Source of the DNA: Thermalbibacter longus
GTDB lineage: Bacteria > Chloroflexota > Chloroflexia > Thermomicrobiales > Thermomicrobiaceae
Length of the DNA stretch: 64,000 nucleotides
Assembly (NCBI RefSeq): GCF_023806485.1
Contig: NZ_JAMSLR010000004.1
Coordinates: 248,001 to 312,000 of the forward strand
Direction: 5' to 3'
Under the pieces are notes generated by a model that had not been told where the DNA came from, ran no database searches, and saw nothing but the letters and a program-made list of their open reading frames with translations. The position numbers were made by a program, and so were the translations under genes. Below are positions 1,273 through 3,006 of this stretch, piece after piece (the stretch's first letter is position 1; every line of letters begins with the position of its first letter).

Positions 1273-2202
1273 ATGGGATCGCGAGCGCATTGCATCAAGG
1301 GTGAGCAACTCACTGAGCGCATCGGCCGAACACCGTTACTTCGCCTTGCGCGCGTGCCCGCGCAGCTCGGGGTAGGCACTGAGGTGCAGATTCTGGCTAA
1401 AGCCGAGTGGTTCAACCCTGGTGGCTCGGTCAAAGATCGCGCCGCGCTCCGGATCGTCGAAGACGCGCGCCGCGATGGCCGCCTGCGCCCGGGCATGACC
1501 CTCCTCGATGCCACGTCCGGGAATACGGGCATTGCCTATGCGATGATCGGCGCGGCGTGGGGCTTCCCGGTGACGCTGGTCGTCCCGGCGAGCATCGGAG
1601 AGGAGCGGCGCCGTATCCTGCTCGCCTACGGTGCCAACCTTATCTTCAGCGACCCGTACGAGGGCACCGACGGCGCGATCCGGCTAGCCCGCGAGCTAGC
1701 CGCCCGCGAGCCGGATCGGTACTTCTATGCCGATCAGTACAGCAACCCATCGAACTGGCTAGCGCACTACGATACCACCGGTGTCGAAATCCTCGAGCAG
1801 ACCGGTGGTGAAGTGACCCATCTGGTCGCGGGGCTCGGCACGACGGGCACTATGATGGGAACTGGGCGGCGGCTGAAGGACGCCAACCCGGACGTCGTCC
1901 TGATCGGCGTGCAGCCGGACGACGCCTTCCACGGGCTTGAGGGGTTGAAGCACCTGCCGACGGCGATGCTGCCGGCGATCTACGATCCTTCGCTGGTCGA
2001 TCGGATGGAGCTCGTCAACACCGACGAGGCCTTCGCCATGGCCCGGCAACTGGCCCGGGAGGAGGGCCTGTTCGTCGGCCCGTCGGCGGCCGCGGCAATC
2101 GTGGCGGCCATCCGGGTCGCTCGTGAGTTGTCGAGCGGGTGTGTGGTAACGATCCTACCGGATGGCGGAGTAAAGTATCTAAGCACGCAATTGTGGCAGT
2201 AG
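1273..2202 (+). CDS. cysM: PLP-dependent cysteine synthase, CysM type (sulfur-carrier-dependent)
   Basis: 309-residue fold-type II PLP enzyme of the cysteine synthase family. The PLP lysine is K54 in GGSVKDRAA and the phosphate loop is TSGNTG (81-86). ATG 1273 is preceded by GTAGGGG; the reading frame is open far upstream only because it runs antisense to the kinase. The next two genes encode a ThiS/MoaD-like carrier and a JAMM protease, the same trio as mycobacterial CysM-CysO-Mec+. In that system CysM joins an activated serine (O-phosphoserine) to a protein thiocarboxylate. The same substrates are inferred here from gene order; an O-acetylserine/sulfide enzyme cannot be excluded. Confidence 0.9.
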   Translation: MGSRAHCIKGEQLTERIGRTPLLRLARVPAQLGVGTEVQILAKAEWFNPGGSVKDRAALRIVEDARRDGRLRPGMTLLDATSGNTGIAYAMIGAAWGFPVTLVVPASIGEERRRILLAYGANLIFSDPYEGTDGAIRLARELAAREPDRYFYADQYSNPSNWLAHYDTTGVEILEQTGGEVTHLVAGLGTTGTMMGTGRRLKDANPDVVLIGVQPDDAFHGLEGLKHLPTAMLPAIYDPSLVDRMELVNTDEAFAMARQLAREEGLFVGPSAAAAIVAAIRVARELSSGCVVTILPDGGVKYLSTQLWQ

Positions 2203-2233: not shown

Positions 2234-2512
2234 GTGGCGGTCACAGTCTTGATCCCGGCGCCCTTGCGCCGGTTCACCAACGAGCAGGCATCGGTGCAGG
2301 TCGAGGCGGGGACGGTCAGCGAGGCGCTGGCGAAGCTGGACGCGCAGTTTCCCGGCATCCGCGACCGGATCTGCGAGCCCGACGGTCGTCTCCGACGCTT
2401 CGTGAGCGTCTTCGTCAACGGCCGGGACGTGCGCTCGCTCGAAGGGCTCGACACGCCGCTGCGCGAGGGCGACGAGGTCGGCATCATCCCGGCGATGGCA
2501 GGGGGCCGATGA
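2234..2512 (+). CDS. cysO: Sulfur carrier protein, CysO/MoaD/ThiS-like, with Gly-Gly-Arg C-terminus
   Basis: 92-residue beta-grasp (ubiquitin-like) protein beginning at GTG 2234 behind GAGGAGCGAGA. Such carriers end in Gly-Gly, which is adenylated and converted to a thiocarboxylate. Here the protein ends AGGR, one arginine beyond the diglycine. The final codons overlap the ATG of the JAMM protease gene (CGATGA), so the two are translationally coupled. The extra residue would have to be removed before activation, and the adjacent metalloprotease is the obvious candidate. It is the likely sulfur donor for the upstream CysM. Confidence 0.88.
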   Translation: MAVTVLIPAPLRRFTNEQASVQVEAGTVSEALAKLDAQFPGIRDRICEPDGRLRRFVSVFVNGRDVRSLEGLDTPLREGDEVGIIPAMAGGR

Positions 2513-3006
2513 TCCGCCTGCCTCGGCCTCACTACGAGGCGATCGTCGCGCATGCCCAGCGGGAAGCGCCCCGCGAGTGCTGCGGCCTCCTAGCTGGCCG
2601 AGGCGACCTGGTCGAGCGTGTCTACCAGATCGCGAACCGGGCCGATCAGGCCGCGGATCTCTTTGCCGAGCGCGACCTGATGCCGCGGGTGGGGGCCGAT
2701 CCGGTCCTTCTCCCCACCGAGCGCTACTTCATGGATCCGGAAGAGTTGTTCCGCGCGCTACGCGATATCGAGGCACAAGGGCTGGAGCACATAGCAAACT
2801 ATCACTCGCATCCAGCGACACCAGCGAGGCCATCTCGCACGGATATCGAGTTCGCGGCCTACTGGCCCCACGTCTACCACCTGATCTGCTCGCTGGCCGA
2901 CCCTGAGCGGCCCGACCTCCGGGCTTTCCGCATCGTGGACGGTCAGGTGACCGAAGTTCCGATCGTGGTGGAAGACACGTCCGGTGGCCGTGTCGCGAAC
3001 CTGTGA
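2509..3006 (+). CDS. mec: JAMM/MPN zinc metalloprotease, Mec+-like
   Basis: 165 residues with a complete JAMM centre: E23 in PRECCGLLAG, H99-S-H101-P, S109 and D112. Mycobacterial Mec+ hydrolyses the CysO-cysteine adduct to release free cysteine. The same role is likely here, perhaps with an added one of trimming the carrier's terminal arginine. The ATG overlaps the cysO stop by four bases. The family also includes eukaryotic-like deubiquitinases, but the context favours sulfur-carrier processing. Confidence 0.88.
   Translation: MIRLPRPHYEAIVAHAQREAPRECCGLLAGRGDLVERVYQIANRADQAADLFAERDLMPRVGADPVLLPTERYFMDPEELFRALRDIEAQGLEHIANYHSHPATPARPSRTDIEFAAYWPHVYHLICSLADPERPDLRAFRIVDGQVTEVPIVVEDTSGGRVANL

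Follow-up and report, generated by a model that had tools for sequence, protein, structure and literature searches.

The window analyzed here is a 64,000-nucleotide stretch of the Thermalbibacter longus genome (C34:248001-312000 of an assembly of 3.6 Mb in 80 contigs). Near its start, a cysteine synthase gene, a sulfur carrier gene, and a JAMM protease gene follow one another in the order cysM, cysO, mec:

1273..2202, + strand: CysM-like PLP cysteine synthase, 309 aa, ending 31 bp upstream of the carrier gene
2234..2512, + strand: CysO-like sulfur carrier, 92 aa, GTG start, C terminus AGG-R
2507..2509, + strand: cap codon CGA, the encoded Arg after Gly-Gly, read from the sequence
2509..2512, + strand: ATGA overlap of the carrier stop codon and the JAMM gene start, 4 bases, read from the sequence
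2509..3006, + strand: JAMM/Prok-JAB metalloprotease, Mec+/HcyD/QbsD-like, 165 aa, PF14464 (E 7.1e-26)

The capped carrier and the genes around it

The ThiS profile PF02597 covers residues 5-91 of the carrier (E 4.8e-19), a beta-grasp ThiS match over the whole of the protein. Its best PDB match is Mycobacterium tuberculosis CysO (3dwg_C, E 1.1e-17); this structure and 4n6e_B are the closest solved carriers, and both end exactly at Gly-Gly. As translated, the carrier of the window instead ends in ...GIIPAMAGGR, the final codons being GGG GGC CGA TGA, and a free Gly-Gly would thus become available only after removal of the arginine. An earlier note on this DNA had described a CysO-like carrier ending in AGGR beside a JAMM gene whose ATG overlaps the carrier stop codon, and the codons, the 4-base overlap, and the PF02597 and PF14464 matches bear out this description.

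The protease carries an intact JAMM catalytic set, with the catalytic glutamate (E23) and an HxHx(7)SxxD motif (H99, H101, S109, and D112). All five residues are invariant in the homolog alignment. The protease was also aligned to Pyrococcus JAMM1 (PfJAMM1) and the Desulfitobacterium JAMM protein 2kks, the closest solved proteases. An AlphaFold2 model (pLDDT 86) has the MPN fold and superimposes on PfJAMM1 in 5lda, a complex with the ubiquitin-like partner SAMP2, with a Z score of 18.3 and an rmsd of 1.6 over 126 aligned residues. By profile search, this is the only Prok-JAB protein above the cutoff in its genome.

The upstream enzyme belongs to the PALP family (PF00291, E 6e-73). It scores 363 bits against the TIGR01138 cysM model, under the cutoff of 394, and its best PDB match is Escherichia coli CysM; M. 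tuberculosis CysM is absent among its PDB matches at E 1e-60 or better. Two ThiF-family E1 enzymes are encoded in the genome, at C1:371845 (with a rhodanese domain) and C1:557450, neither of which adjoins the carrier locus. Locus L005 (1471-3675) encodes a second E1-like protein, of 345 aa, with a cysteine-desulfurase-like gene directly behind it.

The cap in close relatives and across Chloroflexota

In the independently assembled genome HRbin26, the carrier is 97% identical and likewise ends in GGR. Exactly one residue, Arg or Gln, follows Gly-Gly at all ten distinct Thermomicrobiaceae loci with an overlapping JAMM gene, and none of the ten has plain Gly-Gly. The cap codons are CGA or CGG (Arg, in HRbin26 and several genera) and CAA or CAG (Gln, in other genera), each followed by TGA, and each of the ten distinct loci where JAMM lies downstream keeps the RTGA overlap, with ATG or GTG as JAMM start. 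This agreement between independent assemblies rules out that a sequencing slip or frameshift produced the extra residue: the cap is real. Nor does the geometry of the overlap force an additional codon, since plain Gly-Gly would be compatible with GGA-TGA or GGC-TGA-TG.

At most of the ten loci, one C-to-T change in the cap codon would create a stop, plain Gly-Gly, and a standard TGATG junction. Close relatives that end in plain Gly-Gly through a single-base difference, which the earlier note had named as evidence against its reading, were looked for among these loci and not found. On a tree built from the ten carriers, the cap codon has kept its first base in all 10 lineages; at four-fold sites, two to four changes are usual, and just 1 site of 35 has none. 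Because this base has stayed the same although at most of the loci one C-to-T would give plain Gly-Gly, there is modest evidence that the Arg/Gln cap is retained in Thermomicrobiaceae and is not drifting. Two members of the family without a neighboring JAMM gene have the tails ADF and ASV; an order mate has SVA and another Chloroflexi MAG has SRV, with JAMM just downstream in each. No Thermomicrobiales carrier with plain Gly-Gly was found among those examined.

We then extended the comparison to 400 Chloroflexota genomes, 318 of which have a CysO-like carrier and 330 a Prok-JAB protein. From these, 138 distinct standalone carriers were taken, comprising the best-scoring places and all carrier-positive genomes lacking JAMM; among JAMM-positive genomes the sample leans to high-scoring matches, and many of the genomes are probably MAGs. 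Residues follow Gly-Gly in 86 of the 138 sampled carriers; as a correction to the earlier note, the extra residue is common and no oddity. As that note had proposed to check, it co-occurs with the protease gene: 34 of 36 carriers with a same-strand JAMM gene no more than 2 kb away are tailed vs 52 of 102 otherwise (Fisher p 9e-7; the counts are non-independent). A similar division is seen at the level of whole genomes, with 83 tailed and 36 plain carriers where JAMM is present vs 3 and 16 where none is detectable (p 1e-5, again from non-independent counts). Restricting the sample to carriers of at least 100 bits gives 81:35 with JAMM in the genome and 0:5 with none (p 0.003, counts likewise non-independent). 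A tree-aware pairing on JAMM presence in the genome yielded 8 supported independent pairs, with a mean of 2.8 for and 0.2 against; the association points the same way but is not significant in this underpowered test.

All three tailed carriers from genomes in which no JAMM was found come from MAG-like assemblies, and two of the three belong to families otherwise bearing JAMM, so the gene may be missing from the assemblies. Most of the leftover weak Prok-JAB matches in JAMM-less genomes are RadC-like in size. In the other direction, the JAMM-adjacent carrier L114 ends in plain Gly-Gly, and plain carriers of Nostoc and Okeania lie mostly in JAMM-bearing genomes, so the presence of JAMM does not imply a tail; plain carriers of Thermosynechococcus come from genomes without a JAMM match. 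From these comparisons, JAMM seems to permit a tail without requiring one. Adjacency as a necessity for the tail is ruled out by the 52 of 102 nonadjacent carriers that are tailed.

Tails vary in composition and, beside JAMM genes, range from 1 to 14 residues; no fewer than 27 tail changes fall on the carrier tree. AGG is invariant before every tail in the aligned carriers. That tails vary while Gly-Gly stays fixed suggests that Gly-Gly is still needed in exposed form. At two loci in the phylum, L170 and L172, the carrier is encoded with GG-Cys, a translation product identical to the adduct of carrier and cysteine in the CysO pathway.

Why the cap exists is a separate matter from how it is removed. 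The cap may have arisen as a ratchet, in which JAMM is present for other tasks, near-neutral shifts of the stop codon accumulate, and the carrier becomes dependent on the protease. The high variability of the tails across the phylum, with their many changes on the carrier tree, fits such a history, as does the occurrence of both states in JAMM-positive genomes while JAMM-less genomes have nearly always plain Gly-Gly. It is harder to reconcile with Thermomicrobiaceae, where every cap codon is either CGR or CAR and its first base shows a constancy matched by only 1 of 35 four-fold sites. We give this history a little less than even odds, and it is compatible with trimming by JAMM.

Fusions through Gly-Gly and the proposed reaction sequence

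Carriers extended beyond Gly-Gly include fusions to whole domains. The genome containing the window encodes a MoaD-MoaE fusion (G000:C12:255866-256447, minus strand; loci L001 and L229) with the junction VSGG-SGPF. Fused-length MoaE frames occur in 14 of the 16 JAMM-positive genomes that were checked; among 14 JAMM-less genomes with MoaE, two fusions are confirmed and one case is unresolved, and both confirmed fusions belong to genera whose other members have JAMM. The Thermomicrobiaceae genome G347 (loci L231, L259, and L261) has no CysO-like carrier match and has kept both JAMM and the MoaD-MoaE fusion, which fits MoaD-MoaE as a second JAMM client. The JAMM protease of the window probably also cuts the fusion encoded in its own genome. 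A further carrier-like ORF of G347 ends in GG-SAGR and adjoins a formamidase-like gene.

In Gemmatimonadota, Firmicutes, Spirochaetes, and other groups, the carrier is fused at Gly-Gly to its own E1-rhodanese, nearly always with JAMM just upstream. Such carrier-E1 fusions through Gly-Gly, with or without rhodanese, were found at L028-L060, L101, L110, L124, L139, L142, L158, L173, L178, L182, L188, and L192, and at most of these fusion loci outside Chloroflexota a JAMM gene is nearby. At L052, from the Selenomonadaceae MAG G415, the fusion occurs in a genome in which no JAMM was found; either this assembly is incomplete or the fusion is functional uncut.

These extensions bear on who removes the cap. 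An unrelated carboxypeptidase could take off the arginine, with JAMM confined to Mec+-type hydrolysis of the carrier-cysteine adduct (and to MoaD-MoaE) and its adjacency reflecting the cysteine step. General carboxypeptidases typically act on a terminal arginine, a plain carrier can adjoin JAMM, as at L114, and M. tuberculosis CysO ends in plain Gly-Gly, yet Mec+ hydrolyzes its adduct. The tails, though, vary in residue and, beside JAMM, from 1 to 14 in length; they include whole fused domains, which are beyond a carboxypeptidase; and in Streptomyces, deletion of the JAMM gene abolished the use of capped carriers (PMC6006322). We therefore regard a separate carboxypeptidase as improbable. Equally improbable, in our estimation, is a role of the extra codon in translating the JAMM gene, the GGA-GGN glycine codons forming a ribosome-binding site and the cap codon a spacer: GGAGG or GGGGG does lie 3-4 bases before the JAMM start at several loci, but GGC-TGA-TG would keep this spacing with plain Gly-Gly and is never seen, and tails are found as well on carriers whose JAMM gene is upstream or unlinked. 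Finally, an inactive or repurposed ubiquitin-like modifier that is never thiocarboxylated, to which an NCBIfam SAMP1 match of the carrier slightly above the cutoff (66.8 vs 60 bits) and a weak, below-cutoff desampylase match of the protease might point, is very improbable given the invariant AGG before every tail in the aligned carriers and the position of the carrier gene between cysM and JAMM.

Removal of the cap by the adjacent JAMM protease is, by comparison and precedent, strongly supported. This part of the earlier note's interpretation stands, given the PtmS1 precedent, the intact active site, the close fit of the protease model to PfJAMM1, and the ratios of tailed to plain carriers (34:2 beside JAMM vs 52:50 otherwise, and 3:16 in genomes without it, all non-independent counts). 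The dual role that the note had also proposed, trimming and then release of cysteine, may follow from the chemistry and from the precedents of Mec+ and HcyD. In the M. tuberculosis CysO-cysteine adduct, cysteine is peptide-bonded to the last glycine. Since the encoded GG-Arg and GG-Cys share this type of linkage, a single active site could serve both with no new specificity.

We thus favor, with a probability of roughly 70%, a CysO-type cysteine-making locus with a capped carrier precursor, in which the overlapping JAMM protease first trims the carrier, then frees cysteine, and also splits MoaD-MoaE. In this scenario, translation yields the capped form, and the JAMM protease would cleave off Arg92 behind Gly91, which leaves Gly-Gly exposed before adenylation. 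An E1-like enzyme from another genomic locus would adenylate and thiocarboxylate the trimmed carrier, and the CysM-like enzyme would pass the sulfur to a serine derivative. The predicted product is carrier-Gly-Gly-Cys, once more with one residue in peptide linkage to the final glycine, which the same protease would cut into cysteine and free carrier; MoaD-MoaE is probably split by it as well.

A broader form of this proposal makes the one JAMM protease a maturation hub for all GG-X substrates in the cell (the capped carrier, MoaD-MoaE, and the cysteine adduct), with the Arg/Gln cap selected as an adduct mimic that holds the carrier inactive for as long as no protease has been made. We consider this doubtful; if true, the start-up of the cysteine pathway would be tied to the level of the protease.

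Capped carriers in known systems

In the thioquinolobactin cluster of Pseudomonas, the protease QbsD exposes the Gly-Gly of the capped carrier QbsE, as proposed here, but the pathway is that of a siderophore and the cap is longer, reportedly Cys-Phe. The dual role proposed here is that of the metalloprotease HcyD of Wolinella, which reportedly strips a one-residue cap (Ala) from HcyS and later frees the amino acid product. HcyS/HcyD reportedly makes homocysteine with MetY, whereas the CysM-like enzyme of our locus points to cysteine. The trimming precedent in Wolinella, which the earlier note had mentioned, was confirmed as a citation.

A capped carrier with a JAMM gene clustered with it is likewise described for Streptomyces platensis, where PtmS2 (GG-MV) and PtmS3 (GG-C) need the JAMM protease PtmS1, whose deletion abolishes their use; QbsD is cited there as a biochemical example (PMC6006322). 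That system differs from ours in its readout, thioplatensimycin production, and in its cap residues, and an overlapping junction is not described in the available text. The CysO-CysM-Mec+ system of M. tuberculosis comprises the same three gene families as our locus, and Mec+ hydrolyzes the CysO-cysteine adduct, as cited in PMC3227635. Its CysO ends in plain Gly-Gly (3dwg_C) and needs no trimming, whereas the carrier here is capped.

In Deinococcus radiodurans, DRJAMM cuts a MoaD-MoaE fusion and leaves a C-terminal Gly, and the available text makes no mention of a capped CysO-like carrier (PMC8832034); the genome of the window likewise has such a fusion, together with one clear JAMM protein. 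With a single JAMM protease, a capped carrier, and a MoaD-MoaE fusion, the genome of the window is well suited to ask cleanly whether several carriers share one protease. The gene content of our locus also matches the ThiS/MoaD-JAB-cysteine synthase neighborhoods of Iyer et al. 2006 (rows 4c/4d, which include a Chloroflexus example), although the E1 gene here is not adjacent. In the accessible portion of that study, JAB was predicted to free fused ThiS/MoaD, its role in siderophore-type operons was called "mysterious," and the short cap is not noted (PMC1779556).

In conclusion, our locus joins the known capped-carrier systems, since the Ptm, Qbs, and Hcy cases and the 2006 neighborhood catalog precede it. 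Capped carriers with a clustered JAMM gene were thus already documented, and what we add is another example and a phylum-wide count. Short caps after Gly-Gly, easily dismissed as annotation errors, are here real and frequent, and they would bring into primary sulfur metabolism across Chloroflexota a maturation step described for pathways to siderophores, methionine, and thioplatensimycin.
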